From: Rhizophagus irregularis
Taxonomy: Eukaryota > Glomeromycota > Glomeromycetes > Glomerales > Glomeraceae
Direction of reading: 5' to 3'
NCBI RefSeq assembly: GCF_026210795.1
Contig: NC_089444.1
Span: 734,501-798,500 of the forward strand
Length of the DNA stretch: 64,000 nt
The notes under the pieces are model-generated. The model saw only the letters and a program-made list of their open reading frames with translations. It did not search any database and was not told the DNA's origin. Made by a program: the position numbers and the translations under genes. The stretch's first letter is position 1. Each line of letters starts with the position of its first letter. This document shows, in pieces, positions 1,011 through 64,000 of this stretch.

Positions 1011-1743
1011 CTATTAATTTATAAAAAATATAAATATATTAAAAAATAAGTCAAATTAATTCATAAAAATACCTCATTCAAAAATTAACACAGAGATAAT
1101 CTTTTGTTGGGCATTTTTTACAAAAGTAGTTATTTTTATGTCAATCATTTGTCAATCATTTTATAAATTTATCAAATTTATTAATTCGAATATATGTACA
1201 TCGTTTCTTAATTTGATATTTACCCACATGCAGAATTGCCATGAAATTGAAAAAAATTTCCTTTTTGGTAAAAAAAGGTCCATCAAATCTTTATATAACT
1301 TATGTACTTGTACATGTACATGTACAGTACATAGACAGTCAATCATAATGTTAACTTTTTGCACTGAATTTAACTGTGCTACTAAAGATGAATGTTAATT
1401 TGATAGATCACGAATAAATCACATTTTTTAATATTATGTCAATCAATTTTTGTTCTTGCACAAAACAAAAATTTAATTTTTCCAATATTTTTATTTACAG
1501 TTAAAAACTAATTTATCCAAGGATTCTTAGATATAAAACCCTTAAGTAATATGATTGAAAATTCATGTTCATTTAAATATTTTATGTATTAGCTGTTATT
1601 TTCATTTCGCATTCTCTAAGATCTTGTATTGCACTTTGGGTGGCGCAGTAGATATTGGAACATCAAGTAAATAACAAATCTGCCCGAAGGGCTGTCCTTA
1701 AAAAAAAGAAAAATTCGCAAGAATTGCGAATTTTTCTTAATTT
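1011..1743. other. Intron segment without gene; TGTACA run and hairpin
   Basis: This lies between the C-lobe exon and the satellite. It holds a palindromic TGTACA-type run at 1303-1331 and a perfect stem at 1707-1737 (arms AGAAAAATTCGCAA and its complement, loop of 3). I see no coding exon here. Confidence 0.5.
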
Positions 1744-2460
1744 TATTATAAAACATGTTAAAATAACGTCAAATAACGTTATATAACGTTCTTTTATTAT
1801 AAAACATGTTAAAATAACGTCAAATAACGTTATATAACATTCTTTTATTATAAAACATGTTAAAATAACGTTAAATAACGTTATATAACATTCTTTTATT
1901 ATAAAACATGTTAAAATAACGTTAAATAACGTTATATAACATTCTTTTATTATAAAACATGTTAAAATAACGTTAAATAACGTTATATAACATTCTTTTA
2001 TTATAAAACATGTTAAAATAACGTTAAATAACGTTATATAACATTCTTTTATTATAAAACATGTTAAAATAACGTTAAATAACGTTATATAACATTCTTT
2101 TATTATAAAACATGTTAAAATAACGTTAAATAACGTTATATAACATTCTTTTATTATAAAACATGTTAAAATAACGTTAAATAACGTTATATAACATTCT
2201 TTTATTATAAAACATGTTAAAATAACGTTAAATAACGTTATATAACATTCTTTTATTATAAAACATGTTAAAATAACGTTAAATAACGTTATATAACATT
2301 CTTTTATTATAAAACATGTTAAAATAACGTTAAATAACGTTATATAACGTTCTTTTATTATAAAACATGTTAAAATAACGTTAAATAACGTTATATAACG
2401 TTCTTTTATTATAAAACATGTTAAAATAACGTTAAATAACGTTATATAACGTTCTTTTAT
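1744..2460. repeat. 51-bp satellite, block 1 (about 14 units)
   Basis: Tandem units of 51 bp are nearly identical. Each contains the palindromes ACATGT and AACGTT (two or three per unit) and a TTTTATTATAAAA spacer. Because 51 is divisible by 3, each unit reads as 17 codons in every frame, which produces long but meaningless repeat ORFs on the minus strand. The block lies inside the large intron of kinase locus A. Confidence 0.95.
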
Positions 2461-2700
2461 TACTAGGAAACGGGAACCGTTGTAAGTCCGGAGCGAGGTA
2501 TAATAAATAAAGATGTAGCGATATTCTACTAATTATTAGCAGCATAACGCTTTGGAATTCCGGTAATTTTCTGCTGATTAGCAGCATAACGCCTTGGAAT
2601 TCCTGGACAGAGAAACTCACGTGATTGAAAATTTACACGTTATTTCCATAGATCATCATAGTGCGTAGACATATATAGTCCTTCGCTTCGCTCCGGACAA
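2461..2700. mobile_element. Insertion interrupting the 51-bp satellite
   Basis: About 240 bp of different, more GC-rich sequence splits the satellite. An 11-bp inverted repeat, GTCCGGAGCGA at 2486-2496 and its complement at 2688-2698, lies near the two ends. Inside, a 26-bp direct repeat with the core GCAGCATAACGC occurs at 2536-2561 and 2578-2603. It could be a small terminal-inverted-repeat element or an older spacer. No target duplication is certain because both flanks are satellite. Confidence 0.5.
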
Positions 2701-4240
2701 TAAAACATGTTAAAATAACGTTAAATAACGTTATATAACGTTCTTTTATTATAAAACATGTTAAAATAACGTTAAATAACGTTATATAACATTCTTTTAT
2801 TATAAAACATGTTAAAATAACGTTAAATAACGTTATATAACGTTCTTTTATTATAAAACATGTTAAAATAACGTTAAATAACGTTATATAACGTTCTTTT
2901 ATTATAAAACATGTTAAAATAACGTTATATAACGTTATATAACGTTCTTTTATTATAAAACATGTTAAAATAACGTTATATAACGTTATATAACGTTCTT
3001 TTATTATAAAACATGTTAAAATAACGTTATATAACGTTATATAACGTTCTTTTATTATAAAACATGTTAAAATAACGTTATATAACGTTATATAACGTTC
3101 TTTTATTATAAAACATGTTAAAATAACGTTATATAACGTTATATAACGTTCTTTTATTATAAAACATGTTAAAATAACGTTATATAACGTTATATAACGT
3201 TCTTTTATTATAAAACATGTTAAAATAACATTATATAACGTTATATAACGTTCTTTTATTATAAAACATGTTAAAATAACGTTATATAACATTTTTTATC
3301 ATAAAAAATGTTAAAATAACGCTAAAATAACGTTTTTTTTATCATAAGAAATGTTAAATAACGTTAAAATAACGTTATACAACGTTTTTCCATTATAAGA
3401 CATGTTAGAATTACGTTTTTTTATTATAGGACATGTTAAAATAATGTTAAATAACGTTATTTAACGTCATATAACATTTTTTTATTGTAAAACATGTTAA
3501 AATAACGTTATTTAACGCCATATAACATTTTTTTATTGTAAACCATGTTAAAATAACGTTATTTAACGTCATATAACATTTTTTTATTGTAAAACATGTT
3601 AAAATAACGTTATTTAACGTCATATAACATTTTTTTATTGTAAAACATGTTAAAATAACGTTATTTTAACGTTATATACCATTTTTTATTATAAAACATG
3701 TTAAAATAACGTTATTTAACGTCATATAACATTTTTTATTATAAAACATGTTAAAATAACGTTATTTAACGTCATATACCATTTTTTATTATAAAACATG
3801 TTAAAATAACGTTATTTAACGTCATATACCATTTTTTATTATAAAACATGTTAAAATAACGTTATTTAACGTCATATAACATTTTTTATTATAAAACATG
3901 TTAAATTAACGTTATTTAACATCATATAACATCTTTTATTATAAAACATGTTAAAATAACGTTATTTAACGCCATATAACATCTTTTATTATAAAACATG
4001 TTAAAATAACGTTATTTAACGTCATATAACATCTTTTATCATAAAACATGTTAAAATAACGTCATACTGTATAACATTTTTTATTATAAAACATGTTAAA
4101 TAACGTTATTTAACGTCATATACCATTTTTTATTATAAAACATGTTAAAATAACGTTATTTAACGTCATATACCATTTTTTATTATAAAACATGTTAAAA
4201 TAACGTTATTTAACGTTATATACCATTTTTTATTATCATA
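2701..4240. repeat. 51-bp satellite, block 2, homogeneous then diverged
   Basis: Units continue from 2701. The first ~12 units are almost uniform at 51 bp. From about 3293 they diverge in sequence and length (TTTAACGTCATATAACAT variants, small indels) and fade out near 4240. The gradient from uniform to diverged units is typical of an array that expands from one side. It lies in the intron of kinase locus A. Confidence 0.9.
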
Positions 4241-4299
4241 GTTAATTTAAAAAAACATTAAAGTAACGTTAAAATAACGTTTTTTATCATGGTTAATTT

Positions 4300-4620
4300 T
4301 AGTTAGTTTAAACTATATGTAAATATTATATAATAAAGTAATAATAGAATTAAATAATAAATAAATAATTTTTTAAATAAAGAATTTAGTTAAATTACAT
4401 GTAAATATTATATAAATAAGCAATAATAAATAACTTATAACTTACGATCTATTAAATAAAGAATTTAGTTAGTTTAAATTATATGTAAACATTATATAAA
4501 TAAAGTAATTATAGAATTAAATAAATAACTTATAACATTTGTAGTAAGTAATAATAGAATTAAAAATAACTTGCTATTAAATAATTTTTAAATAAAGAAT
4601 TAAAAAAATGTTAATTTAAA
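4300..4620 (-). repeat. Remnant of the microexon-intron unit, minus strand
   Basis: Read on the minus strand, this stretch repeats the intron unit of the 20-25 kb array (TTTACATATAATTTAAAC, ACTAACTAAATTCTTTATTT). One copy still has the full acceptor-triplet-donor arrangement: TAG, then ATC at 4446-4448, then GTAAGTTATAAG. The neighbouring copies have lost the triplet and donor. It lies in sense orientation inside the large intron of kinase locus A, between the last N-lobe exon and the C-lobe exon. Confidence 0.75.
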
Positions 4621-6861: not shown

Positions 6862-7338
6862 CTCATTTAAAAATTGATCAATAGTATTTTGTGAATCATG
6901 CAAATATTTTAAGACAACTTTTGCATCCGACATTCTTAAATGTTTCTTATAATTCATATCAAAATATACTGGCCCGTCCTTCCATTCTGCTGAATAAAAT
7001 GCAAAACATTCATCTTTATTTATTTCCTTAATTTCATTAAACTGATTGTATGGTATCCACTCAAATATATATACCGGATCAAGTATGGATTTTGATAACC
7101 TTCCTTGAATGAAATTATCAACCTTTTCATTGCCACTCCGATTTATAAAATTTAATTTAAAATCTTTTATTAGGCATGGATTACATAATCGATGATAGTC
7201 ATATGAATTACCACATGTTACGCAATATGATTGTAAATATTCATCATTAAAAATCATAAAATAATCATTTGTATCTGGATTTTGAGATATTCCATAAATA
7301 TAAAACTTATCACTAGTGACATGAACTCTTCGTTTAAT
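6862..7338 (-). CDS. Locus A N-lobe exon 2 (phase-0 repeat exon)
   Basis: 159 codons, open, starting IKRRVH after AG. It contains the GISQNPDTNDYFMIF strand, ribbon YCVTC ... LCNPC, EWIPYNQF, a degenerate loop (INKDECFAFYSAEW) and VVLKYL. It ends FLNE before donor GTATGAAT. Same module order as its neighbours. Confidence 0.75.
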
Positions 7339-20027: not shown

Positions 20028-23000
20028 ATGGCTCACAGTAATAAAAAAGGTAATAATCATATATATATAGCATAAACATTTAACACAATTAAAATTATGA
20101 ACAAATTTTCAATATAACAAAACTAGGTGCCTCTGAAGAATTTGAAGAAAGTATTGAGAAATTTGAAGAAAACAGTACCAAGGAATTTGAAGGTATGTTG
20201 AACAAGCCAAAATATTAAATTTTATTTGTAAATGCACTTAAATACTATCTATAATAATTATATTTTATATAATATACAAATATGATTTAAACTATCTATA
20301 TTATACAAATGGAAATTATATCAAATAATTTAGCTCGTAAGTTAATAATATAAAGTTATCTTATAATTGAATAATAATGGGATTACTTATTATTTTAATT
20401 ATATTTCAAAATGATTCATTTAATGCTTAACAATACTGTAGTTGGTAAGTTATCAGTTATTCAAATTTTTGGTTCTTTACTTTACTTATTTTATAAAATA
20501 TTCAAATAACTAAATTCTTTATTTAAATAATTAATTATGATATTGCAGTAGGTAAGTCACAACATAATATTTAATTATTAATTTTATATAATTCAATTAA
20601 TTATATTCTTAATTTAAATAATTAGATTGTAAGTAATATATTTAATTTACAGTAAATACTTCTGTATTATGTTACATCTTATTAATTAACAATTAATAAT
20701 ACTACAGGGTGTAAGTTATATCTATATTTCTACTATCAATATAATAATTTAAACCAACTAAGAGTTTACTTAAAAATTATTTTATAGATGGTAAGTTATT
20801 TATTTAACTCTTATTTATATAATAATTACATTTAATTTAAACTAACTAAATTCTTTATTTAAAAATTATTTAATAATGTAGTTTGTAAGTTATTTATTTA
20901 ATTCTATTATTACTCTTTTATATAATATTCACATATAATTTAAATTAATTAATTCTTTATTAAAAAATTATTTAATAATATAGTTTGTAAGCTATTTATT
21001 TAATTTTATTATTACTTATTTATATAATATTTACATATAATTTAAACTAACTAAATTATTTATTTAAAAATTATTTAATAATATAGCTGGTAAGTTATTT
21101 ATTTAATTCTATTATTACTTGTTTATATAATATTTACATATAATTTAAACTAACTAAATTCTTTATTTAAAAAATTATTTAATAAAAAGCCCGTAAGTTA
21201 TTTATCTACTAATTCTATTATTACTTATTTATATTATTTATATAATATTTACATACAATTTAAACTAACTAAGTTCTTTATTTAAAAACTTATTTAATAA
21301 TATAGCTTGTAAGTTATTTATTTACTAATTCCATTATTACTTATTTATATAATATTTACATATAATTTAAACTAACTAAATTCTTTAAAAAACTATTCAA
21401 TAATATAGCTCGTAAGTTATTTATTTGATTCTATTAATATTTATTTATATAATATTTAATATTTACATATAATTTAAACTAACTAAATTCTTTATTTAAA
21501 AAATTATTTAATAATATAGTTCGTAAGTTATTTATTTAATTCCATTATTACTTATTTATATAATATTTGCATATAATTTAAACTAACTAAATTTTTTATT
21601 TAAATATTTATTCAATAATAGCTCGTAAGTTATTTATTTAATTCTATTATTACTTGTTTATATAATATTTACATATAATTTGAACTAACTAAATTCTTTT
21701 TTAATTAATAATATAGGGAGTATGTTATTTATTATTTATATAATATTTACATATAATTAAAGGGTTTTGTTTTTTATCGCCATGGCGATGCATCGCCAGT
21801 GTCACGTGATTTTATAATTCCGGCCGGAATTAAAAGATCGTCAAAGAAATATCCTTTTTTGGAAGTTTTGTGTAATAAAAACTTGAATTTTGCTGAAAAA
21901 TAAAATTGCCTTTTTTGGATTGTGTAACGTTACCTAAATCTCCAAAAAAGGATATTTTGGCCAGCGTTATAAAATTTGGCCGAGATTAAGCATGTGATGT
22001 ATATGGAGTGACGAATAGTATTTTTTGCACTGAAAAAATTCAAGTCCCCAGAATAAATAATAAAAATGGAAAACTAGAGGATGTGACGCGGGGTGACAAA
22101 TGATTCACATATGTAAAGTCACGTGACACTTGCGACACATCGCTATGGCGATTTTTTATAAAATCCATAATTAAAACTAACTAAATTCCATCTTTATTTA
22201 ATAGATTGTAAGTTATAAGTTATTTATTGTATTTTATTATTACTTATTTATATAATGTTTACATATAATTTAAACTTCTTTCGTTTAAAAAATTATTTTG
22301 TAATTTTGTTTAGTTGGTAAGTTATATGCTATTTATTTTAATTCTAATATTACTTAATTATATAATATTTATATATTTTAAACTAACTAAATTTTTTATT
22401 TAAAAATTTATTTATTAATATAGTTCGTAAGTTACTATTTATTTAATTCTATTATTACTTATTTATATAATATTAACATATTTTAAACTAACTAAATTCT
22501 TTATTTAAAAAATTATTTAATAATATAGAGAGTAACTTATTTAATTCTATTATTATTTGTTTATACAATATTTACATATAATTTAAACTAGCTAAATTCT
22601 TTATTTAAAAAATTATTTTATAGATGGTAAGTTATTTATTTAATTCTATTATTACTTATTTATATAATATTTACATACAACTTAAACTAATTAAATACTT
22701 ATTTAAAAAATTATTTAATAATATAGATTGTAAGTTATTTATTTAATTCTATTGTTACTTATTATATAATATATTACATATAATTAAACTAACTAAATTC
22801 TTTATTTAAAAAATTATTTAATAATATAGCTCGTAAGTTATTTATTTAATTCCATTATTACTTATTTATATAATGTTTACATATAATTTAAACTAACTAA
22901 GTTCTTTATTTAAAAACTTATTTAATAATATAGCTTGTAAGTTTTATTTACTAATTACATTATTACTTATATATATAATATTTACATATAATTTAAACTA

Positions 23001-26000
23001 ACTAAATTCTTTATTCAAACAATTATTTAATAATATAGCTGGTAAGTTATTTTTTTGATTCTATTATTACCTATTTATATAATATTTACATATAATTTAA
23101 ACTAACTTAATTCTTTATTTAAAAAATTATTCTATAGATGGTAATTTATTTACTTGATTATAATATTTATATATAATTAAACTAATTAAATTCTTTATTT
23201 AAAAAATTATTTATTAATATAAGCTCGTAAGTTATTTATTTAATTCTATTATTACTTATTTATATAATATTTACATATAATTTAAACTAACTAAATTCTT
23301 TATTTTAAAAATATAGCACGTAAGTTATTTATTTAATTTATTATTACTTATTTATATAATATTTACATATAATTTAAACTAACTAAATTCTTTATTTAAA
23401 ATTATTTAATAATATATAGAGAGTAAGTTATTATTTCTATCATTATTTATTCATATAATAGGCCGCCCCAATTTGATTGTTTGTTTAACATCCAGAATTT
23501 ATGAAGAATTTGAGGGGGGAGGAGTCTACAATAAACAAACAAACATAATATAACTTTTGGGAAATTCTCAAAATTCTGAAAAATCGTAATTTAAATTTAG
23601 AGGGGACTATATGTTTAATAGAATCCAGATTTTGAAAAACTAGGTACATTAAACAAATAATTAAATTGGAGTGGCCATATTTACATATAATTTAAACTAA
23701 GTTCTTTATTTAAAAATTATTTAATAATAGTTCGTAAGTCATATATTTAATTTTACTATTACTTATTATATTATATTTACATATAATTTAAACTAAATTT
23801 CTTTATTTAATAGATCGTAAGTTATAAGTTATTTATTTAATTCTATTATACTTATTTATATAATATTTACATATAAATAAATTAACTAAATTCTTATTTA
23901 AAAAATTATTTAATATATAGGGGGTAAGTTATTTTTTAAATCTGTTATTATTTATTTATATAATATTTACATATAATTTGAACTAACTAATTTCTTATTC
24001 GATAGATCGTAAGTTATAATTTATTTATTTAATTCTATTATTACTTATTTATATAATATTTACATATAATTTAAACTAACTAATTCTTTATTCAAAAAAT
24101 TATTTAATAATAGGGAGTAAGTTATTTATTTAATTCCATTATTACTTATTTATATAATATTTACATATAATTTAAATTAACTAAATTCTTTATTCAAAAA
24201 ATTATAATAATATAGCTGGTAAGTTTTTTTTTAATTCTATTATTACTTATTTATATAATATTTACATATAATTTTAAACTAACCAAATTCTTTATTTAAA
24301 AAATTATTTTATAGATGGTAAGTTATTTATTTAATTCTATTATGGCCATGACTAATATTTTAGAGGATGCAAAATCTTACGTGACACAAAATTAAGCATT
24401 TTTATTGGTTAAAATTAGTACTATATGTATAAATGAATATTATTGGTTAAAAGATCTTACCTGGGGGTGGATAAAGCTCCTTATGAAACTAATATTAGCT
24501 AATATATTTCACTGCCCTTATTACTTATTTATATGATATTTGCATATAATTTAAACTAACTAAATTCTTTATTTCAATAATATAGAGAGTAAGTTATTTA
24601 TTTAATTCTATTTTTACTTGTTTATATAATAATTATATATAATTTAAACTAAATTCTTTATTTAAAAATTTATTCAATAATAGCTCGTAAGTTATTTATT
24701 TAATTCTATTATTACTTATTTATATAATATTTACATAGTATAGTTTAAACTAACTAAATTCTTTATTTCTAAAAATTATTTAATAATATAGCTTGTAAGT
24801 TACTTGTTGTTTCTATTTTTATATATTTTATATAATGTTTTGTTAATTGAGTTCTTTATTTAAAATTCTGTTACTTTAGTTGGTAAGTTGTGAAATACAG
24901 GTTATTATTATATATTTACGAAAAAACTAAGACATATATTATATTAAATTTCATTTAAATTATAGAGTAAGTTGTTAATTTTAATCTGTAATTTTTAATA
25001 TAAACTTTAATATAATTTTAATTATTTAAATTTATAGATTTGGAAAAAGTGGAAATAAAATTATTGATAATTTTATTTTGGAAAAAAAATTAAAATGGCT
25101 TCCTTATGATAAATTCAAAAATGTTGTATATCTTGATAGAGGCGGATTTGGTACTATATACAAAGCTATTTGGCTAAATGATGATGGTGATAAAGAAGTA
25201 ATTCTTAAATGTCATAGTAATTTATGTGAAAATTTAAATGAATTTTTAAATGAAGTATGATAATAATGTATTTTTAATTTAATTAATTTAAATTATAATT
25301 TATTTATACTAATACGTTATTATTTTTTTATAGTGGAAATATCATGAAAGTTGTTTAAACTCATATAGAATTATTAATTTTTATGGATTTACAAAAGATC
25401 CAGATACCTTGAAATATATGGTAGTAATGGATTATGCAAACAATGGTAATTTAAGAGTAAACTTAACAAGAATAATTAAAATTAATTGGTATCAAAAATT
25501 ATATATGTTACATGATATTATTTCTGGACTTTATGATATACATCTACAAAATCTTGTTCATTGTGATTTTCATGATGGCAATATTTTAAATCATAATGAG
25601 AGGAAAATTTATATTAGTGATTTAGGATTATGTCAACCTGTAAAATCATTTTTGAAAAAATATGATATATTTGGTGTTATACCATTTATGGCACCCGAAG
25701 TTTTAAGAGGTAATTCTTATACTCCAGCTAGTGATATATATAGTTTTTCTATGATTATGTGGGAATTTACATCTGGGGTACCACCATTTAATAATATAGC
25801 ACATGATTTTCAACTTAGTTTAAGTATTTGTGAAGGTGAGCGTCCTGAAGTTATTAAAAATACTCCACAATGCTATAAAGATTTAATGAAAAAGTGTTGG
25901 AATGAAGATCCATTAAAAAGGCCATCATCTGAAGAAGTGTACAATATTATTAAAGGATGGGTTCTTCCTCCTAATGAAATTAAAAATATTAATGAAGAAT

Positions 26001-26212
26001 TAAAATGCAATATTATGGAATTTATAAATGCACCAATTGAGAATAACAATCTTGTTACTGAATTTCATCCACAAACATGTTATATAAGTCGTTTACTTGA
26101 CTTTACTAGTAAAGAATTGAATGAAATTCTTGAAAGTGAAGATTCACAAACTTATTATGTAAGCTATTCTTCTACTGGTATAACTGAAGATTTGGATGAC
26201 TGTAAAATTTAA
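20028..26212 (+). CDS. Kinase gene with tandem microexon array
   Basis: Model: exon 1 20028-20049 (MAHSNKK), exon 2 20127-20192 (acidic, EEFEESIEKFEEN), 39 exons of 3 nt between 20334 and 24882, one 1-nt exon at 24966, kinase N-lobe exon 25038-25254, C-lobe exon 25334-26212. The total is 1302 nt, 434 codons including the stop. The N-lobe has LPYDKF, LDRGGFGTIYKAIW, VILKCH and EFLNE. The C-lobe has HCDFHDGN (HRD Arg is Cys), ISDLGLC, APEVLRG and a C-terminal tail. Exon 2 ends in phase 1 and the N-lobe exon begins in phase 2, so direct splicing is out of frame. Inclusion of the full array (118 nt) puts it in frame with no stop. The microexons would encode a ~40-residue linker between an acidic N-terminus and the kinase. 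There is no transcript proof. Confidence 0.65.
21762..22166. mobile_element. MITE 1 inside the microexon array
   Basis: About 405 bp with long terminal inverted repeats: GGGTTTTG then ATCGCCATGGCGATG on the left, ATCGCTATGGCGAT then TTATAAAATCC on the right, both followed inward by GTGTCACGTGA. The target duplication ATAATTAAA lies at 21753-21761 and 22167-22175. An 8-9 bp duplication fits hAT or Mutator-type mobilisation. It carries the AATTCCGGCCGGAATT palindrome seen elsewhere in the window. It sits in an intron and leaves the flanking splice signals intact. Confidence 0.85.
23461..23676. mobile_element. MITE 2 inside the microexon array
   Basis: A 216-bp element with ~27-bp terminal inverted repeats (GGCCGCCCCAATTTGATTG against GGCCACTCCAATTTAATTA). 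The target duplication is ATA at 23458-23460 and 23677-23679. The short duplication and GGCC ends fit a Harbinger-like origin, by inference. It interrupts an intron body, not an exon. Confidence 0.8.
24344..24517. mobile_element. MITE 3 inside the microexon array
   Basis: A 174-bp insertion in the intron body. The ends GGCCATGACTAATATT and its imperfect complement form weak inverted repeats. TTAT is duplicated at the junctions, or TTA if the element starts one base earlier. The interrupted unit sequence CTATTATTACTT is restored when it is removed. Confidence 0.7.
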
Positions 26213-48420: not shown

Positions 48421-49016
48421 AGGAAAAAAAAATGAAAAAAAATTATGAAACGTTAATAAGCGTTTCGTTAAAAAATGTAATAAAAAAAAATCGGAACGTT
48501 AGCCAACATTCCGATTAAAGAAAAAATCAAAAAAAAAGTTTCGAAACGTTAAAAAACGTTTCGTTAAAAATGAAATACAAAAAAAATCGGAACATTAGCC
48601 AACGTTCCGATTAAGAAAAATAAAAAAAAAATGTATTTTCGAAACGTTAAAAAGCGTTTCGTTAAAAAAAAATGAAAAATAAAAAAATCGGAACGTTAGA
48701 CAACGTTCCAATTAAAGAAGTTAAAAAAAAAGAATAAATGAAACGTTTTTCAACGTTTCGTTAAAAAGTAAAATAAAAAAATAATCGGAACGCCAACGTT
48801 CCGATTAAAAAAAATTAAAAAAAATTGTTTCGGAATGTTAAAAAACGTTCCGATTAAAAAAAAAGAAAAAAAAATATTTTCAAAACGTTAAAAAACGTTT
48901 CGTTAAAAATGAAAAATCGGAACGTTAACCAACGTTCCGATTAAAAAAAAATAAAACAAATATTTCGAAACGTTAAAAAACGTTTTGAAAATAATTTTAA
49001 TGAAAAATCGGAACGT
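48421..49016. repeat. Alternating hairpin array, left part
   Basis: About 12 short palindromes are separated by A-rich linkers. Two kinds alternate: CGGAACGTTAGCCAACGTTC-type and CGAAACGTTAAAAAACGTTT-type, with paired changes in both arms (for example CGTTTC/GAAACG and GTTCCG/CGGAAC). The last palindrome is cut by the LTR element at 49017 and continues at 54874. Confidence 0.85.
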
Positions 49017-50271
49017 TGTAAACGGCCGAATATCAAGCATGAGAAGATGATAAAACACCACCGCCAAATGTAATTATCAAGTATTAAGAACGAACAAATT
49101 AATCGTGGATTGGTGTGGATGGATAAATAATTAGCCGAAGAGGATAAACATTTAAGAAGAGTAATGATCTACATGATGTAATATTTATCAAATGATTGAC
49201 AAAGAACCAATAGGATAAATAGAGTCGATCAATTGCGGCTTGGCGATCTTTAACAACAAGAACGATAAGAAAGAATAATTATAAGCCACAAAAGATAGAT
49301 TATAAGCAAAACACATAAAGTGGATTAAAAGAACATATAAAATAATGTCGGAAAGATTAAAGAACACAAAATAATATAAAAGATAATATGAAAAGATAGT
49401 AAAAAGATGGAATATAAAAGATAACATATTAAAAAGAACATATATAAAAAGATAACACAGCCACAAAAGATGAATTATATCTTTACGACATAATATTTGA
49501 AAGATTATTTTAAAGAAAAGATAGCACAGCCATAAAAGATGGGTTATAAATTATTTCTTTACGATGTAATATTTGAATAATAGAAAAGATAATATATAAA
49601 ATAATATATAAGATAGCATAATATATAAGATAGCATATTAAAAGATAGCGTATTTAAAATATAGATAGTATATTAGAAAGATAGTTCAAAGATAATATGT
49701 AAAGAACATAAAAGATAGTATATAGATAGAATAGAAAGTAGCATAAAAATTGTATATATAGAGAACGGAATTCAAAGTAATTCCATAGTTCGCATCCACA
49801 GAACTCAATAAAATATAAGTTTTATTTTTTAATTATTAATGAAGTTTAATATTAATTAAAGGTAATAGGTTCGCCCTAAACTTTAATTAATGTTTGATTA
49901 ATTAATTTTAATTAATGAAAATTTAAGATGAATTAAATATATACCTTTGGAAGATAATAATTCGTAGCGAGAGCTATCGCAGTTTGAAATCGAAAGTGGA
50001 TATAAATTGAGGAAAATTCGGAGAAGTTAATTTTATTTTATACCGTTCAATGCTTTATATTACTAACGCTATTTATTTTGTGAACCAAGAATGTTGTTGT
50101 ATATTGCTCGCTGATGTTGTTGTTCGTTAATTATGTTTTGATCACGTGTTTGTTCGTTTGATTGCTCGTTCGTTCGTTTGTTTGTTCGCTCATTCGTTCG
50201 TTCGACCATGAGAATGCCCGTTCGATGTGGCAACCTTGTAAATTGATGACAGGGGGAATTGGGGGATCTCA
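49017..50271 (+). repeat. 5' LTR
   Basis: 1255 bp, TG...CA. It contains a GAACGAACAAACGAACGAAC-like run near 50150-50210 and many AAGATA/AAAGATAG repeats. It looks identical to the 3' LTR. Confidence 0.95.
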
Positions 50272-53618: not shown

Positions 53619-54873
53619 TGTAAACGGCCGAATATCAAGCATGAGAAGATGATAAAACACCACCGCCAAATGTAATTATCAAGTATTAAGAACGAACAAA
53701 TTAATCGTGGATTGGTGTGGATGGATAAATAATTAGCCGAAGAGGATAAACATTTAAGAAGAGTAATGATCTACATGATGTAATATTTATCAAATGATTG
53801 ACAAAGAACCAATAGGATAAATAGAGTCGATCAATTGCGGCTTGGCGATCTTTAACAACAAGAACGATAAGAAAGAATAATTATAAGCCACAAAAGATAG
53901 ATTATAAGCAAAACACATAAAGTGGATTAAAAGAACATATAAAATAATGTCGGAAAGATTAAAGAACACAAAATAATATAAAAGATAATATGAAAAGATA
54001 GTAAAAAGATGGAATATAAAAGATAACATATTAAAAAGAACATATATAAAAAGATAACACAGCCACAAAAGATGAATTATATCTTTACGACATAATATTT
54101 GAAAGATTATTTTAAAGAAAAGATAGCACAGCCATAAAAGATGGGTTATAAATTATTTCTTTACGATGTAATATTTGAATAATAGAAAAGATAATATATA
54201 AAATAATATATAAGATAGCATAATATATAAGATAGCATATTAAAAGATAGCGTATTTAAAATATAGATAGTATATTAGAAAGATAGTTCAAAGATAATAT
54301 GTAAAGAACATAAAAGATAGTATATAGATAGAATAGAAAGTAGCATAAAAATTGTATATATAGAGAACGGAATTCAAAGTAATTCCATAGTTCGCATCCA
54401 CAGAACTCAATAAAATATAAGTTTTATTTTTTAATTATTAATGAAGTTTAATATTAATTAAAGGTAATAGGTTCGCCCTAAACTTTAATTAATGTTTGAT
54501 TAATTAATTTTAATTAATGAAAATTTAAGATGAATTAAATATATACCTTTGGAAGATAATAATTCGTAGCGAGAGCTATCGCAGTTTGAAATCGAAAGTG
54601 GATATAAATTGAGGAAAATTCGGAGAAGTTAATTTTATTTTATACCGTTCAATGCTTTATATTACTAACGCTATTTATTTTGTGAACCAAGAATGTTGTT
54701 GTATATTGCTCGCTGATGTTGTTGTTCGTTAATTATGTTTTGATCACGTGTTTGTTCGTTTGATTGCTCGTTCGTTCGTTTGTTTGTTCGCTCATTCGTT
54801 CGTTCGACCATGAGAATGCCCGTTCGATGTGGCAACCTTGTAAATTGATGACAGGGGGAATTGGGGGATCTCA
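53619..54873 (+). repeat. 3' LTR
   Basis: Same length and ends as the 5' LTR. It is preceded by the purine-rich tract at about 53601-53618. Confidence 0.95.
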
Positions 54874-55312
54874 ACGTTAGCCAACGTTCCGATTAAAAAA
54901 AATGAAAAAACAAATATTTCGGAACGTTAGACAACGTTCCGATTAAAAAAAATAAAACAAATATTTTGAAACGTTAAAAAACGTTTCGAAAATATTTTTA
55001 ATGAAAAATCGGAACGTTAGCCAACGTTCCGATTAAAGAATTTTTTAAAAAACAATATTTCAGAACGTTTTTCAACGTTCCGATTAAAAATGAAGTAAAA
55101 AAATTAATCGGAACGTTAGCCAATGTTCCGATTAAAAGAATTTAAAAAAAAATAATATTTCGGAATGTTTTTCAACGTTCCGATTAAAAATGAAATAAAA
55201 AAAATAATCGGAACGTTAGCCAACGTTCCGATTAAAAGAATTTTTTAAAAAAATATTTCGAAACGTTAAAAAACGTTTCGTTAAAAAATGAATAAATAGT
55301 TTTGCAACGTTT
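54874..55312. repeat. Alternating hairpin array, right part
   Basis: Continuation of the array at 48421-49016 with about 8 more palindromes of the same two kinds, including variants with a TTTTTC loop. The first one is the half cut by the LTR element. Confidence 0.85.
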
Positions 55313-57279: not shown

Positions 57280-58176
57280 TTATTTTATCTCACAGGATAA
57301 ACATTCAGAATTATTATCATTATATTTTGGAAGTTCTTTGGTAAAAGAATTAAGCAATCGGGATATATAAATTGCTTGTGGATGAATAGTTGATTGATCA
57401 TTTTCATTTGATAATTGGTTAACTATTCTGTATGATTCCACTTCCTCAAATTGTTTTTTTATTTCTATTTCTTCATCATTTATTACTGCAATTAAAATAT
57501 TCCCTTTATACGCCTTGTGAAATTGTAAAAATGATTCATATATTATAGTAGAATTTGGTCTATTTTTTGGATCTGAATCCCAACACTTTTTCATTAAATC
57601 AATATAGCATTTTGGTGCTTCTTGCTCATTAATTTCAGGTCTAATTTCATTGCATATATCTAATGCTAGAAGCTTATCGTGAGCACAATTAGTAAAAGGT
57701 TGTCTCCCAGTTGCTGCAAAATACATAATCATACCAAAACTGTATATATCTGCTGATTGACTATATGGTATTCCTCTTAGTACTTCTGGTGCAACATAGG
57801 GCATAACTCCATAAATCTTTGTTTTATCTGTATTATCAACTTCGCCACATAATCCCATATCTGATATAAATATATTATCACCAAAAATGTTGATCTTGCT
57901 TATACTGTTTGTAAAAAACAATATATTTCCTGTATGTAAATCACGATGAAATATTCGTTTTTGATGAATCTCTTTGAGGCCATTACTGATATTAAGTAAT
58001 GTAATTATTTTAGAGAACCAAGAAAAATTTTTAAAATTATTATTCATCCATTTATTAAAATTTCCACCTTCTGCATATTCAAGGACTATTATATATTCTT
58101 TTGTAATTGGATTTTGAGATAATCCATATATTTTAAGGATATTACTACCATGCTTATCTATTGAATATTCTTTGAT
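57280..58176 (-). CDS. Protein kinase C-lobe exon, locus D, intact
   Basis: Last exon of the second kinase array, 298 codons plus stop, acceptor TAG at 58177-58179. In order: IKEYSIDKHGSN, KIYGLSQNPITKEYI (beta4-beta5), VLEYAEGGNF hinge, HRDLHTGNIL catalytic loop, ISDMGLCG, VAPEVLRG, DIYSFGMIM, CWDSDPKNRP, and a tail with HPQAIYISRLLNSF. All catalytic residues expected for this family are present, unlike its sister at 66-1010. It joins in phase 0 to the exon at 58259-58753. Confidence 0.85.
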   Translation of the reverse strand: MKEYSIDKHGSNILKIYGLSQNPITKEYIIVLEYAEGGNFNKWMNNNFKNFSWFSKIITLLNISNGLKEIHQKRIFHRDLHTGNILFFTNSISKINIFGDNIFISDMGLCGEVDNTDKTKIYGVMPYVAPEVLRGIPYSQSADIYSFGMIMYFAATGRQPFTNCAHDKLLALDICNEIRPEINEQEAPKCYIDLMKKCWDSDPKNRPNSTIIYESFLQFHKAYKGNILIAVINDEEIEIKKQFEEVESYRIVNQLSNENDQSTIHPQAIYISRLLNSFTKELPKYNDNNSECLSCEIK

Positions 58177-58258
58177 CTACCAAATACAAAAAAAAAGCAT
58201 TATATATATATTATATATTAAAAAAGGATTTAAATTAAAAATTATAAATAATTCTTAC

Positions 58259-58753
58259 CTCATTTAAAAATTCATTAGTAATATTTTGTGAATTATATAA
58301 GCATTTTAAGGCAACTTTTTTATCATTGTTTCTTATATATTTCTTTTCATTATTATTATAGTATAAAGGACCATACTTCCACATCGCTGAATACACTGTA
58401 GCAAAACCACCTTTATCTATCTCTTTAATATCATTAAACTGGTCATATGATATCCACTCAAATATAATATCAAATGGGTTACTAATTTTTAATTGCATTT
58501 CTTGAATGAAATTATCAATTTTTTCATTACCATTACTGCTGGTTTTTAAATATTCTAATTGACATAATTTACACCATTTATAATAAATATACATGTTATT
58601 ACAGTTCTCACAATATTTTTCTAAATATTTGTCATTATAAATTAAAATATAATCCTTTGAATCAAGATTTTGAGATATTCCATATATTTTAATAGTAACA
58701 TTAGTATTATTATCCTTATTTGATTGCTCTTCATTTATTGAATATTTTCTGGC
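58259..58753 (-). CDS. Locus D N-lobe exon 1 from the C-lobe (proximal, intact glycine loop)
   Basis: 165 codons, open, acceptor TAG, ends FLNE before GTAAGAAT. Modules: ARKYSI, KIYGISQNLDSKDYILIY, ribbon YCENC ... WCKLC, GNEKIDNFIQEMQ, EWISYDQF, IDKGGFATVYSAMW, VALKCL. It is the only copy of this array with a GGFATVYS glycine loop, and it adjoins the C-lobe exon, so the two make the working kinase. Confidence 0.85.
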
Positions 58754-58816
58754 CTATTAAAATTTAGAAATATTATTATAAAATAATTCAAGAAATAAAG
58801 ATATAAAGAAATTTAC

Positions 58817-59284
58817 CTCATTTAAAAGTTCATCAGTATTTTGTAAACATTTTAAAATGACATTTATATCTTGATGCCTTTTGTATATTCTAGAATTTTC
58901 GTCCCAATGAAATGGACCATTCTTCCATTTTGCTGAATATATTGTAGAAAAATCATCTTTATTATTTACTTTATTAATGTTAAAAAATTGATTGTTTAAT
59001 ATCCACTCAAATATTGTATCTGATGGGTTATTAATTTCTGATTGTTTTTCTTGAATAAAGTTATCAATTATTTCATTTCCACTGGTCCAATTTATAAAAG
59101 TTTTTTTTATATCTTCCATTTGACATGATTTACACCATTTAGAATTTTTATGTAAATATATGTTATTACATTTACTACAACATTTTGTAGGATAATCTAA
59201 TTGATTTAAAATCATAATATAATCATTTGTATCTGAATTTTGAGATATTCCATGTATTTTAAGATTGATTGAATGAGCTTTAAC
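58817..59284 (-). CDS. Locus D N-lobe exon 2
   Basis: 156 codons, phase 0 at both ends, starts VKAHSI and ends LLNE before GTAAATTT. Ribbon CCSKC ... WCKSC, WTSGNEIIDNFIQEKQ, EWILNNQF. The loop is degenerate (VNNKDDFSTIYSAKW); VILKCL is kept. Confidence 0.8.
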
Positions 59285-59351
59285 CTATTAAGTAGAATGA
59301 AAAATTATTATTGCATTAAAAATAAACTTAGTTTATAGGAAAATTTTATAC

Positions 59352-59816
59352 CTTATTTAGAAATTCTTCAATATTTTGTAAATTATGTAAATATTTCAAA
59401 GTAACACTGTTATGACATTTTTTGTATTTTTTACTATGCCTATCCCAATATAATCTATTCTTCTGCATTGCTGAATATACTGTAAAATCGTCATTATTAT
59501 CTACTTCATTAATGTCATAAAATTGATCATATGGTATCCACTCAGATATTATACTCTTTGAGTCATTAATTTTCAATTGTTTTTCTTGAATAAAATTATC
59601 TATTTTTTCATCTCCACTGGTCCAATTTACAAAATCTTTTTTTAAATTATTTATTTGACATTGTCTGCACCATTGACTTTTTACATCTGTATAACCTTTA
59701 TTACATTTTATACAGTAATTTCCATTATTGAAATCTATTAAAACTAAAATATAATCTTCAGTATTTGGAAATTGAGATATTCCATATACTTTAAAATTGG
59801 TTGAATGTACTTTAAC
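59352..59816 (-). CDS. Locus D N-lobe exon 3
   Basis: 155 codons, open from VKVHST to FLNK before GTATAAAA. Ribbon YCIKC ... WCRQC, WTSGDEKIDNF, EWIPYDQF, degenerate loop VDNNDDFTVYSAMQ, VTLKYL. No ATG begins it, as expected for an internal exon. Confidence 0.8.
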
Positions 59817-59889
59817 CTATTAAATATAAATAAATAAATTATTGTATATTCAAATTAAAAATGATTTAAGTTTATAGAAAACTTTATAC

Positions 59890-60363
59890 CTCATTTAGAA
59901 ATTCTTCAATATTTTGTAAATTGTGTAAATATTTCAAAGCAACTTCATTATTTTTGTTATCTTGATGCCTTTTGTATTTTCTACAATTTTCGTCCCAATG
60001 TAATGGACCATTCTTCCATTTTGCTGAATATACTATAGACAGGTCATCATTATTTACTTCATTAATGTCAGAAAATTGATCATATAGTATCCACTCAAGT
60101 ATTGTACTCTGTGGGCCATTAATTTCCAATTGTTTTTCTTTAATAAAATTATCTATTTTTTCATTTTCACTAGTCCAATTTATGAAATTTTTTCTTAAAT
60201 TGTTTGTTTGACATTGTTTACACCACTTACAAGTAATATTTGTATAAGCTTCATTACATTTTATACAATAACCTTTATCTTGTAAAACTATAATGAAATC
60301 ATCTATATTTGGCATTGAAGATATTCCATATATATTAAATTTGGTTGAAGTTGAATGTATAAC
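59890..60363 (-). CDS. Locus D N-lobe exon 4
   Basis: 158 codons, starts VIHSTSTKF and ends FLNE before GTATAAAG. Here GISQNP reads GISSMP. Ribbon YCIKC ... WCKQC, EWILYDQF, loop VNNDDLSIVYSAKW, VALKYL. Confidence 0.8.
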
Positions 60364-60440
60364 CTGTTAAGTATAAATAAGTTAGTTACCATTATATATT
60401 CAGATTAAAAAATGATTTAAGTTTATAGAAAACTTTATAC

Positions 60441-60920
60441 CTCATTTAGAAATTCTTCAATATTTTGTAAATTATGTAAATATTTCAATGCAACTTCATT
60501 ATTTTTGTTATCTTGATGCCTTTTGTATTTTTTACTATGCTTATCACAATCTAATGGACCATTCTTCCATATTGCTGAATATACTGTAAATGAATCATTA
60601 TTATCTACTTCATTAATTTCAGAAAATTGATCATATGGTATCCACTTAAGTATTGTACTCTGTGGGCTATCAATTTCCAATTGTTTTTCTCGAATAAAAT
60701 TATCTATTCTTTTATCTCCACTAGTCCAATTTATAAAATCTTTTTTTAAATTATTTATTTGACATTGCCTGCACCATTTACTTTTTACATCTGTATAACC
60801 TTTATTACATTTTATACAGTAATTTCCATAATTAAAATCTATTAAAACTAGAATATAATCTTTAGTATCTGAATCTTGAGATATTCCATATACATCAAAA
60901 TTGTTTGAATGCATTTTAAC
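60441..60920 (-). CDS. Locus D N-lobe exon 5
   Basis: 160 codons, starts VKMHSNNFDVYGISQ and ends FLNE. Ribbon YCIKC ... WCRQC, KWIPYDQF, loop VDNNDSFTVYSAIW, VALKYL. Phase 0 at both ends. Confidence 0.8.
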
Positions 60921-60998
60921 CTATTAAATGAAGTATAGATAAATAAGTTATTGTATGATCAAATTAAAAATGATTTAAGTTTATAGAAAACTTTATAC

Positions 60999-61490
60999 CT
61001 CATTTAGAAATTCTTCAATATTTTGAAAATTTTGTAAATTATGTAAATATTTCATAGTAACTTCATTATTTTTGTTATCTTGATGCCTTTTGTATTTTCT
61101 ACAATTTTCGTCCCAATGTAATGGACTATTCTTCCGTTTTGCTGAATATACTATAGAAAAGTCATTATTATCTATTTCATTAATTTCTGAAAATTGATCA
61201 TATAGTATCCACTCAAATATTATACTCTGTGAGCTATTAATTTCCAATTGTTTTTCTTGAATAAAATTATCTATTTTATCATTTCCACTAGTCCAATTTG
61301 CAAAATCTTTTCTAAAATTATTTATTTGACATTTTCTGCACCATTTGCCAATTATATCTGTATAACCTTTATTACATTTTAAACAGTAATTTCCATACAT
61401 AAAATCTTCTATTAAAACTAAAATATAATCTTTAGTGTTTAAAATCTGAGATATTCCATGTAATTTAAGATTGATTGAATGTATCTTAGC
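60999..61490 (-). CDS. Locus D N-lobe exon 6
   Basis: 164 codons, starts AKIHSINLKLHGISQ. Ribbon YCLKC ... WCRKC, EWILYDQF, loop IDNNDFSIVYSAKR, VTMKYL. A small in-frame duplication gives NLQNFQNIEEFLNE at the end. Confidence 0.8.
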
Positions 61491-61558
61491 CTATTAAGTA
61501 TAATAAAAAAATTATTATTGTATTAAAAATAAATTGAGCTTATAGGAAAATTTTATAC

Positions 61559-62032
61559 CTCATTTATAAATTCTTCAATATTTTGTAAGTTACGTAAATA
61601 TTTCAAAGTAACTTCGTTATTTTTGTTATTTTGATAATTTTTGTATTCTTTAATATTTTTATCCCAATATATTGGTCCATTCTTCCATTTTGCTGAATAT
61701 ATTATAGACAAGTTATCATTATTTACTTCATTAATGTCAGAAAATTGATCATATGGTATCCACTTAAGTATTATACTCTGTGGGCTATTAATTTCCAATT
61801 GTTTTTCTTTAATAAAATTATCTATTTTTTCACTTCCACTAGTCCAATTTATAAAATCTTTTTTTAAATTGTTTGTTTGACATTGTTTACACCATTTGCA
61901 AGTAATATTTGTATAAGCTTTATTACATTTTATACAATAACAATATCTATCTTGTAAAACTATAATGTAATCTTTTATATCCGGAAATTGGGATATTCCA
62001 TATATTTTAAAATTGATTGAATGTACTTTAAC
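61559..62032 (-). CDS. Locus D N-lobe exon 7
   Basis: 158 codons, starts VKVHSINFKIYGISQ. Ribbon YCIKC ... WCKQC, KWIPYDQF, loop VNNDNLSIIYSAKW, VTLKYL, ends FINE before GTATAAAA. Confidence 0.8.
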
Positions 62033-62108
62033 CTGTTAAGTAAAAATAAATAAGTTACTATTGTATATTTAAATTAAATATGATTTAAGTCTATAGAAAA
62101 CTTTATAC

Positions 62109-62570
62109 CTCATTTAGAAATTCTTCATTATTTTGTAAATTATGTAAATATTTCAAAGTAATTTTATTATTTTGATAACTTTTGTATACTTTAATATTTT
62201 CATCCAAAATACGATCATTCTTCCATTTTGCTGAATATACTGTAGACAAGTTATCATTATTTACTTCATTAATGTCAGAAAATTGATCATATGGTATCCA
62301 CTTAAGTATTATACTCTGTGGGCTATCAATTTCCAATTGTTTTTCTTGTATAAAAGTATCTATTTTTTTATCTCCACTAGTCCAATTTATAAAATCTTTT
62401 TTTAAATTATTTATTCGACATTGTTTACACCATTTATAAGTAATATTTGTATAAACTTTATTACAATTTATACAATTACAATATCTATCTTGTAAAACTA
62501 TAATGTAATCTTTTATATTTGGAAATTGAGATATTCCATATATTTTAAAATTGATTGAATGTATTTTAAC
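62109..62570 (-). CDS. Locus D N-lobe exon 8
   Basis: 154 codons, starts VKIHSINFKIYGISQ. Ribbon NCINC ... WCKQC, KWIPYDQF, loop VNNDNLSTVYSAKW, a shortened insert, ITLKYL, FLNE. Confidence 0.8.
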
Positions 62571-62645
62571 CTGTAAAGTATAAATAAATAAGTTATTATT
62601 GTATATTCAAATTAAAATGATTTAAGTCTATAGAAAACTTTATAC

Positions 62646-63098
62646 CTCATTTAGAAATTCTTCAATATTTTGTAAATTATGTAAATATTTCAAAGTAATT
62701 TCATTATTTTGATAATTATTATCTTTTTTAATATATTTATTCCCATATATTGGACCATTCTTCAATTTTGCTGAATATACTGTAGAAAAGTCATCATTAT
62801 TTACTTGATTAATGTCAGAAAATTGATTATATGGTATCCACTCAATTATTGTACTCTGTAGCAATTGTTTTTCTTTAATAAAATTATCTATTTTTTCACT
62901 TCCACTAGTCCAATTTATAAAATCTTTTTTTAAATTGTTTGTTTGACATTGTTTACACCATTTACAAGTAATATTTGTATAAGCTTTATTACATTTTATA
63001 CAATAACAATTTTTATCTTGTAAAACTATAATATAATCTTTTATATTTGGACATCGAGATATTCCATATATTCTAAAATTGATTGAATGTACTTTAAC
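62646..63098 (-). CDS. Locus D N-lobe exon 9
   Basis: 151 codons, the shortest copy; about five residues are missing before the EWIPY segment. GISQ reads GISR. Ribbon with YCIKC ... WCKQC, EWIPYNQF, loop VNNDDFSTVYSAKL, ITLKYL. Confidence 0.8.
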
Positions 63099-63174
63099 CT
63101 GTTAAATATAAATAAATAAGTTACTATTGTATATTCAGATTAAAAATGATTTAAGTTTATAGAAAACTTTATAC

Positions 63175-63648
63175 CTCATTTAGAAATTCTTCAATATTTC
63201 GTAAATTGTGTAAATATTTCAAAGTAACTTCATTATTTTTGTTATCTTGATGCCTTTTGTATTTTCTGCAATTTTCGTCCCAATGTAATGGACCATTCTT
63301 CCATTTTGCTGAATATATTATAGTCAAGTCGTCATTATTTACTTCATTAATGTCAGAAAATTGATTATATGGTATCCACTCAAGTATTGTACTCTGTGGG
63401 CTATCAATTTCCAATTGTTTTTCTTGAATAAAATTATCTATTTTTTTATTTCCACTAGTCCAATTTGCAAAATCTTTTTTTAAATTATTTATTTGACATT
63501 GTTTACACCATTTATAAGTAATATTTGTATAAGCTTTATTACATTTTATACAATTATAATATCTATCTTGTAAAACTATAATATAATCTTTTGTATTTGG
63601 ACATTGAGATATTCCATATATTTTAAAATTGATTGAATGTACTTTAAC
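63175..63648 (-). CDS. Locus D N-lobe exon 10
   Basis: 158 codons, starts VKVHSINFKIYGISQ. Ribbon NCIKC ... WCKQC, EWIPYNQF, loop VNNDDLTIIYSAKW, VTLKYL, FLNE before GTATAAAG. Confidence 0.8.
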
Positions 63649-63723
63649 CTGTTAAGTAAAAATAATAAGTTACTATTGTATATTCAAATTAAAAATGATT
63701 TAAGTTTATAGAAAACTTTATAC

Positions 63724-64000
63724 CTCATTTAGAAATTCTTCATTATTTTGTAAATTATGTAAAAATTTCAAAGTAATTTCATTATTTTGATAATTTTTGT
63801 ATTCTTTAATATTTTCGTCCCAATATAATGGTCCATTCTTCCATTTTGCTGAATATACTGTAGACAAGTTATCATTATTTACTTTATTAATGTCAGAAAA
63901 TTGATCATATGGTATCCACTCAAGTATTGTACTCTGTGGGCTATTAATTTCCAATTGCTTTTCTCGAATAAAATTATCTATTTTTTTATCTCTACTAGTC
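63724..64000 (-). CDS. Locus D N-lobe exon 11, cut by window end
   Basis: The 3' part of a further copy: DKKIDNFIREKQ, EWIPYDQF, loop VNNDNLSTVYSAKW, ITLKFL, FLNE before GTATAAAG. The ribbon lies beyond 64000. The array and the true first exon continue outside the window. Confidence 0.8.

Follow-up and report, generated by a model that had tools for sequence, protein, structure and literature searches.

A predicted array of single-codon exons ahead of a kinase exon

We analysed 64,000 nucleotides (nt) of DNA from the fungus Rhizophagus irregularis (contig NC_089444.1, positions 734,501 to 798,500), hereafter the window. On its + strand lies a gene in which two short exons are separated from the exons of a kinase domain by a tandem array of predicted three-nt exons, followed by a predicted exon of a single nucleotide. 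The features of this gene, in window coordinates, are as follows.

20028..20049, + strand: exon 1 (22 nt; ATG start; MAHSNKK); a similar first exon occurs in paralogues
20127..20192, + strand: exon 2 (66 nt; tail rich in EFE; ends in phase 1)
20334..24882, + strand: array of 39 predicted three-nt exons with introns of about 100 nt; predicted peptide ALVDWYVFSAPSLPRNFVQNDSPSDAPQIHRDRTDETPF(E)
Triplet starts 1-13, + strand: 20334, 20442, 20549, 20626, 20708, 20788, 20882, 20984, 21087, 21190, 21306, 21409, 21520
Triplet starts 14-26, + strand: 21622, 21717, 22205, 22314, 22424, 22529, 22624, 22727, 22830, 22934, 23039, 23138, 23224
Triplet starts 27-39, + strand: 23317, 23420, 23731, 23814, 23921, 24006, 24114, 24216, 24315, 24586, 24684, 24792, 24880
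24966..24966, + strand: predicted one-nt exon (A); length exactly 1 nt at all 82 genome matches
25038..25254, + strand: kinase exon 1 (217 nt; FGKSGNKIIDNFILEKK... GGFGTIYKAIW... VILKCH)
25334..26212, + strand: kinase exon 2, through the stop codon (879 nt; HCDFHDGN, DLG and APE motifs by eye); PF07714, E 2e-34
21750..22180, no strand assigned: inserted element in an array intron of 485 nt (sequence inspection; limits approximate)
23460..23672, no strand assigned: inserted element in an array intron of 308 nt (sequence inspection; limits approximate)
24345..24515, no strand assigned: inserted element in an array intron of 268 nt (sequence inspection; limits approximate)

A preliminary description of this DNA had counted 39 three-nt exons and one one-nt exon ahead of the kinase exon, and both a pattern scan and a splice parse reproduced that count. 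The pattern AG-NNN-GTA(A/T)(G/C/T) was chained 39 times between 20193 and 25037, from a first triplet at 20334-20336 to a last one at 24880-24882, after which AG-A-GTAAGT places the single base at 24966. Likewise, 39 matches with a three-nt exon (k=3) came from the raw scan, but this number includes a chance match at 22078, inside an insert, and misses the GTAAT unit at 23138, which lay outside the scan; the true total is also 39. The donors of the 39 units begin with GTAAG except GTATG (unit 21717), GTAAC (22529) and GTAAT (23138). The GTAAGT-type donors described earlier were found again, but the uniform TAG acceptor was not, since AAG precedes 21190 and 23224 and CAG precedes at least two units (20549 and 20708). 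The branch-like ACTAAC site attributed to every unit is present but degenerate in several. The 41 introns between exon 2 and the kinase exon have a median length of 100 nt and a range of 71-485 nt, the long ones (485, 308 and 268 nt) being those that bear inserts.

Exons 1 and 2 together supply 88 nt and end in phase 1, whereas the kinase exon at 25038 opens on the third base of a codon. As the preliminary description had argued, skipping the array breaks the frame, and the 117 + 1 nt of micro-exons restore it with zero stops in the joined codons; in the window, the remaining two readings of the triplets hit stops. Joined in order and followed by the single A, the triplets give ALVDWYVFSAPSLPRNFVQNDSPSDAPQIHRDRTDETPFE, which leads into the kinase sequence FGKSGNKII.

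Arrays across the genome

We searched the R. irregularis genome (146,748,485 bases, 32 contigs) for the unit ATAGNNNGTAAGTTATTTATTTAATTC, tolerating one mismatch. The two strands returned 977 and 1017 matches, 1,994 in all, and a reversed control returned 0 on both. Because this pattern catches only 211 of the 643 three-nt exons in the analysed arrays, the genome would perhaps hold about 6,000 units if the sample is typical, relics counted too. Twenty stretches on contigs C1-C4 were then taken, which correspond to 19 places as L041 and L042 adjoin. Fifteen of these places held substantial arrays and, with the window, gave 16 arrays for analysis; L033, L036, L045 and L048, with 1-3 units each or a kinase remnant, were excluded from the counts. 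Runs of three-nt exons reach about 80.

The same kinase exon lies downstream in 15 of 15 further arrays, although it is damaged by insertions in L034 and L046. A protein search of the genome found at least 151 matches to the kinase exon, with the best 150 of 3440 candidates scored, and the number of array-bearing paralogous genes in R. irregularis is perhaps 80-150. The predicted segments resemble one another at their ends: (D/N)W comes from the first triplets in 14 of 16, and FE precedes the kinase exon in 9 of 16, with FK in 2 more. We also inspected 8 kinase-exon starts, chosen for promising open frames or matches and excluding L052, and none of them was an intronless (retroposed) copy; all 8 keep the usual last triplet (7 TTG, 1 TTA) and the one-nt exon. 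Judged from these DNA sequences, the arrays very probably encode a hypervariable stretch, about 20-80 residues long, that follows a short acidic N-terminal tail and precedes the kinase domain.

Some arrays showed further peculiarities. In L049, which is built of repeated blocks of units, eight units have GC donors (GCAAG), seven of them after TTG exons and one after TTA. Near 7300, 9040 and 10730 of L041/042 (sense coordinates), a small insert with gtgctgtcagatattacctaatatt at one end has seemingly been copied along with the tandem duplication of array blocks. On the - strand of the window, positions 4298-4600 hold a decayed array relic with three profile matches, in which pieces are 77-81% identical to parts of the array and some donors have been lost.

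Exon length in an unweighted splice parse

To measure exon length, we parsed the 16 arrays with a model that scores donors, acceptors and the branch region, leaves exon lengths of 1-40 nt unweighted and requires AG and GT/GC. For training, its site models drew on 622 AG-NNN-GTA(A/T)G units from the same loci, and start donors were set by hand. Of 669 exons in the parse, 643 were 3 nt and 17 were 1 nt long. The other 9 comprised three of 6 nt, two of 9 nt, two of 4 nt, one of 8 nt and one of 23 nt; several of these are inserts or parser errors, while the 4-nt units of L049 stand in the sequence. First-order Markov surrogates run through the same parser yielded 339 exons (4.24 per array), of which only 7 were 3 nt long.

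Although AG and GT/GC are present at intron ends by construction, the surrounding bases are informative: the donor was GTAAGT in 566 of 643 cases, and T preceded AG in 94%. The donor after exon 2 differs from this, reading GTATAT in 9 of 16 genes and another non-GTAAGT sequence in 6 (exon 2 of L031 was not found).

Stop codons are avoided between direct neighbours

In phase 1, a codon is made of the last base of one triplet and the first two bases of the next, so that neighbour order decides whether a stop arises. Among 601 neighbouring pairs of plain-pattern units there were 0 junction stops, compared with 24.1 (standard deviation 3.8) when triplets were shuffled within each gene, and 0 of 5000 shuffles reached 0. 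Parser-based units gave 1 stop in 618 junctions against 21.4 expected; this lone stop, in L037, vanishes once two weak-donor units missed by the parser are included. Counting repeated pairs once per gene, or dropping duplicated blocks, left 1 stop against 19.4 expected both ways.

The depletion concerns specific joins at a specific distance. Joins that make a stop were rare, with T/AA found 0 times against 5.7 expected, T/AG 0 against 14.4 and T/GA 1 against 4.0 (the slash marks the junction), whereas joins that make none were not avoided (T/AT 43 against 46.3, T/GG 41 against 31.7, and likewise T with TT or CT). Stops were depleted at lag 1 only: 18 were found at lag 2 against 20.5 expected and 24 at lag 3 against 19.7, and lags 4-8 were near expectation. 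The other cross-junction phase contained 93 stops in the same 601 pairs, and 100 against 85.4 expected in parser units, indicating no avoidance. Since stops are avoided between direct neighbours only, the simplest reading is that neighbouring triplets would be joined and translated in genomic order. On the same simplest reading, skipped forms would not be important enough for selection to act against their stops.

These results bear on combinatorial alternative splicing, under which transcripts would hold subsets of the triplets and each gene could give very many in-frame isoforms. Skipping would preserve the frame, since nearly all exons are multiples of 3, and donors and acceptors are alike, as this explanation would expect; the preliminary description had accordingly envisaged many protein variants through skipping. 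We found no support for that proposal, as stops at lags 2-8 were about as frequent as in shuffles, and a skip of the one-nt exon would break the frame. We therefore regard combinatorial splicing as quite unlikely, although some skipping may occur. In Dscam, mutually exclusive exons are used and one is chosen per cluster. Indirect evidence speaks against such a choice here, because the avoidance of stops between neighbours implies that neighbours would be joined together.

Flanking frames and the one-nt exon

The frames on either side of the arrays agree with in-order joining. First exons reach the array in phase 1 in 14 of 14 nameable genes, with coding lengths of 19-172 nt; their boundaries were hand-chosen and cover 14 of the 16 genes, exons 1-2 of L031 and exon 2 of L044 not being confidently named. 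In L041/042, GG rather than AG stands ahead of exon 2. Exon 1 of L032, and likewise of L044, starts MGQCISK, whereas other members start MDQ, MAL or MAQS; we take MGQCISK to resemble an N-myristoylation/palmitoylation signal.

We then searched for the one-nt exon pattern while allowing 0-20 nt between AG and GTAAGT. It occurred at 82 places and was exactly 1 nt long in 82 of 82, with controls at 0 and 1. The base itself was A in 77 cases, T in 3, C in 1 and G in 1. A fixed length combined with a free base is what a putative phase corrector needs. In the window the one-nt exon lies 72 bases ahead of the kinase exon; in three hand-compared cases the distance is about 84 (C2:708760/708863), 81 (C18:320244/320344) and 61 (C4:772325/772405). 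Together with the stop and lag tests, the length of the one-nt exon backs the earlier proposal that the triplets serve as in-order exons totalling 3n+1 nt and restoring the frame.

Variable exons within uniform introns

Entropy at exon positions 1-3 was 1.84, 1.32 and 1.99 bits, compared with 0.0-0.3 at donor positions 1-6, while some deeper intron positions reached 1.2-1.5. When the exons are read in phase 1, variation peaks at codon positions 1 and 2. Among unit pairs whose flanking intron bases are identical at 80 of 80 positions, the exon differs in 40% of 135 within-gene pairs and in 91% of 57 between-gene pairs. This variability points to diversifying selection, or to exons being exchanged among uniform introns. 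Some triplets go with particular intron ends (TTG with AATTTCTTTTAG, 32 of 92 cases; GGA with TTAATAATATAG, 36 of 73), which looks like the reshuffling of a limited number of cassettes. Mid-array codons (n=456) would encode Arg (15%), Asn (9%), Asp (9%), Tyr (7%), His (5.5%) and Trp (5%).

Array-less kinase-like repeats nearby offer a comparison for the array ends. They read, for example, DFINWTSGNEKIDNFIQ, with DFINWTSG and NWTSGNE...IDNFIQEKQ among the repeats. When 9 hand-picked sequences were aligned, F-x-NW-TSGN of these neighbours fell on x-FE/FGKSGN of four predicted proteins (the slash marks the start of the kinase exon), so the Phe encoded by the last triplets appears to be common to arrays and array-less repeats.

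Introner-like elements are intron-making elements, and the arrays could in principle have arisen through repeated insertion of such elements into a prior coding stretch instead of tandem duplication of intron and exon together. This concerns the origin of the arrays and not their present splicing. Near-identical introns around differing exons, in the proportions given above, are what such insertion would leave. However, it is hard to imagine insertion every 3 nt, dozens of times, across many genes; blocks of units look tandemly duplicated, for example in L041/042 and L049; and the array-less neighbours with F-x-NW-TSGN lack a stretch of matching length where the arrays end in x-FE/FGKSGN. An origin by insertion thus seems unlikely.

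The kinase domain, public protein models and neighbouring repeats

Kinase exon 2 matched PK_Tyr_Ser-Thr (PF07714) with 119.5 bits (E 2e-34; curated cut-off 23.1), whereas a Pfam search with kinase exon 1 alone gave zero matches. By eye, VILK, HCD, DLG and APE are kept across the two kinase exons, and the predicted downstream domain is an active-looking TKL-type kinase. A search of a phage collection returned zero matches.

Elsewhere in the window, a neighbouring gene on the - strand of 57280-64000 shows, as far as it is in view, ten tandem open stretches of 153-175 codons at a spacing of about 550 bp, each like a degenerate kinase N-lobe. Most of these repeats contain NWTSG..., and a single C-lobe of 298 codons follows; runs resembling them also occur at G000:C16:694-699 kb and elsewhere. 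Two direct repeats of 1255 bp (49017-50271 and 53619-54873), 100% identical and 3.3 kb apart, have the look of a recent insertion of the long terminal repeat (LTR) type. Positions 1741-4236 hold a minisatellite with a 51-bp period and about 49 copies, and 48424-48984 and 54873-55296 hold arrays of a short palindromic unit (AACGTTagccAACGTT) with a period of about 50 bp.

Weighing the single-codon exon interpretation

Computation on DNA showed the length, order and frame of the exons, the avoidance of stops, the extent of the family and the variability of exons among homogeneous introns. From them we conclude that the arrays are, in all likelihood, genuine spliceosomal single-codon exons that would be joined in order, corrected in phase by the one-nt exon and read into the kinase.

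Several points weigh against this conclusion. The evidence for splicing comes from genomic sequence only, and all analysed arrays are from contigs C1-C4 and the window. Read alone (phase 0), the triplets give 1 stop in 643, a figure independent of their order. As phase 0 is also nearly stop-free, the raw absence of stops cannot choose between phases 0 and 1, and it is the effect of order, along with the reading frames on either side of the array, that favours phase 1. Not all family members are intact. In the unguided parse, the exons of 10 of the 16 arrays sum to 3n+1, and 9 of these arrays read on into the kinase without a stop; when 3-nt exons receive a bonus, the numbers rise to 12 of 16 and 11, with L040 doubtful because its frame depends on doubtful exons. 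Apart from the insertion-broken kinase exons of L034 and L046, L049 has its 4-nt exons and two stops, and the parse contains spurious exons in L039 and L041/042, those of L041/042 lying within an inserted element. Twelve of 25 retrieved public protein models of the kinase family, those that were inspected, lack the segment; they get to the kinase exon from exon 2 or a chance start via short scraps. A protein search with the L044 segment gave 1 candidate, of which 0 were scored. Finally, we know of no precedent for tens of consecutive 3-nt exons, and skipping would be expected.

Part of this record would also fit a non-coding minisatellite, in which AG-NNN-GT is a mere repeat unit and the whole 4.8 kb is spliced as a single intron or bypassed by an internal start. 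The units do form a tandem repeat, the annotated proteins inspected bypass the array, the triplets alone are nearly stop-free, and relics of units lie away from intact genes (window 4298-4600; L033 and L036). Against this, a direct join of 20192 to 25038 breaks the frame, junction stops number 0 in 601, the one-nt exon is exactly 1 nt at all 82 places, and the triplets have a GC content of 37% amid flanks of 9%. On the frame, stop and length tests we rejected the non-coding satellite, which we consider highly improbable, and retain translated single-codon exons as the favoured interpretation.

Comparison with known systems

We searched open-licence papers in PubMed Central (PMC), including those on micro-exons or short exons with Rhizophagus or mycorrhiza and with preprints outside the scope, and found no earlier report of such arrays; as far as searched, single-codon exon arrays are undescribed. 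The comparisons below draw on excerpts of the cited papers.

In schistosome micro-exon genes (MEGs), most of the coding region lies in very small symmetrical exons, and alternative splicing produces a pool of similar proteins (PMC4350168). The R. irregularis arrays share with them very small, frame-keeping symmetrical exons and variable proteins. They differ in having one codon per exon, up to about 80 in a row, in a kinase gene, and in a putative selected product made by joining neighbours in order. The window gene also departs from the MEG pattern in that, although its micro-exons are symmetrical, they contribute 118 nt and most of its coding sequence lies in the kinase exons (217 + 879 nt). 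Alternative splicing into variant proteins, the other MEG trait, may still occur; the lag test on DNA showed no coding signature of skipping.

One-nt exons have been described in plant APC11 and VPS55 and in Fusarium CYP621A (PMC4674806, PMC8831610, PMC12940212), the last being called the first in a fungal gene (PMC12940212). There, as predicted here, the one-nt exon is required for the frame. Those exons are isolated, as the excerpts present them, whereas here a one-nt exon is common to 82 genome places and, in the genes examined, stands beside runs of 3-nt exons. Plant micro-exons are likewise very small and missed by annotation, and one rice transcript contains two adjacent ones of 5 and 12 nt (PMC8831610); the excerpted text of that paper describes no arrays of single-codon exons.

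In Drosophila recursive splicing, acceptor and donor are juxtaposed at ratchet points and one intron is removed in segments (PMC8605326, PMC6110457). In the arrays, too, acceptor and donor nearly touch, each splice would recreate a donor, and stepwise removal is possible. Unlike at ratchet points, each step here would leave one codon behind: the gap is 3 nt, not zero, at 643 of 669 sites (parser range 1-40 nt). Zero-length matches, with AG directly followed by GT, numbered 2 in the raw scan of the window array region, one of them being the end of exon 2 itself.

A possible mechanism and its meaning

A near-invariant GTAAGT donor, a branch region and a TAG acceptor would belong to each intron of about 100 nt. 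The pre-mRNA could then be spliced stepwise from 5' to 3' by intron definition, the growing exon abutting the next donor after every step. A strong GTAAGT donor that does not need pairing with the exon would fit exons that vary freely. The one-nt exon would fix the phase, and the message would continue into the kinase. Unequal exchange between near-identical introns may add, remove or swap codons, and we infer that such recombination is a source of diversity. Because each unit contributes exactly 3 nt, codons could be exchanged without loss of frame, and because gain, loss and swapping of codons keep the frame, the array would act as a frame-safe generator of protein diversity. We guess that the variable segment has a role in recognition or regulation.

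Very small exons are thought hard to splice because their splice sites are crowded, and isolated 1- and 3-nt exons have been published as curiosities. Some thousands of 3-nt exons, and dozens of places that share a one-nt exon, would open the lower limit of exon size and the order and fidelity of splicing to direct tests. The arrays also reverse the usual rule, with uniform introns and variable exons. More tentatively, and with the balance somewhat against it, they may constitute a genome-wide codon-cassette system, in which recombination takes hold of the conserved introns, the single-codon exons are letters that can be interchanged, and splicing reads them out strictly in order. Selection or a targeted process might keep the letters diverse, giving this syncytial fungus a large and fast-changing repertoire of intracellular recognition segments on kinases, which might for instance distinguish self from non-self, or a partner from a stranger. 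If the single-codon exon interpretation is true, this model arbuscular mycorrhizal fungus would have a large kinase family whose most variable part is mis-annotated.

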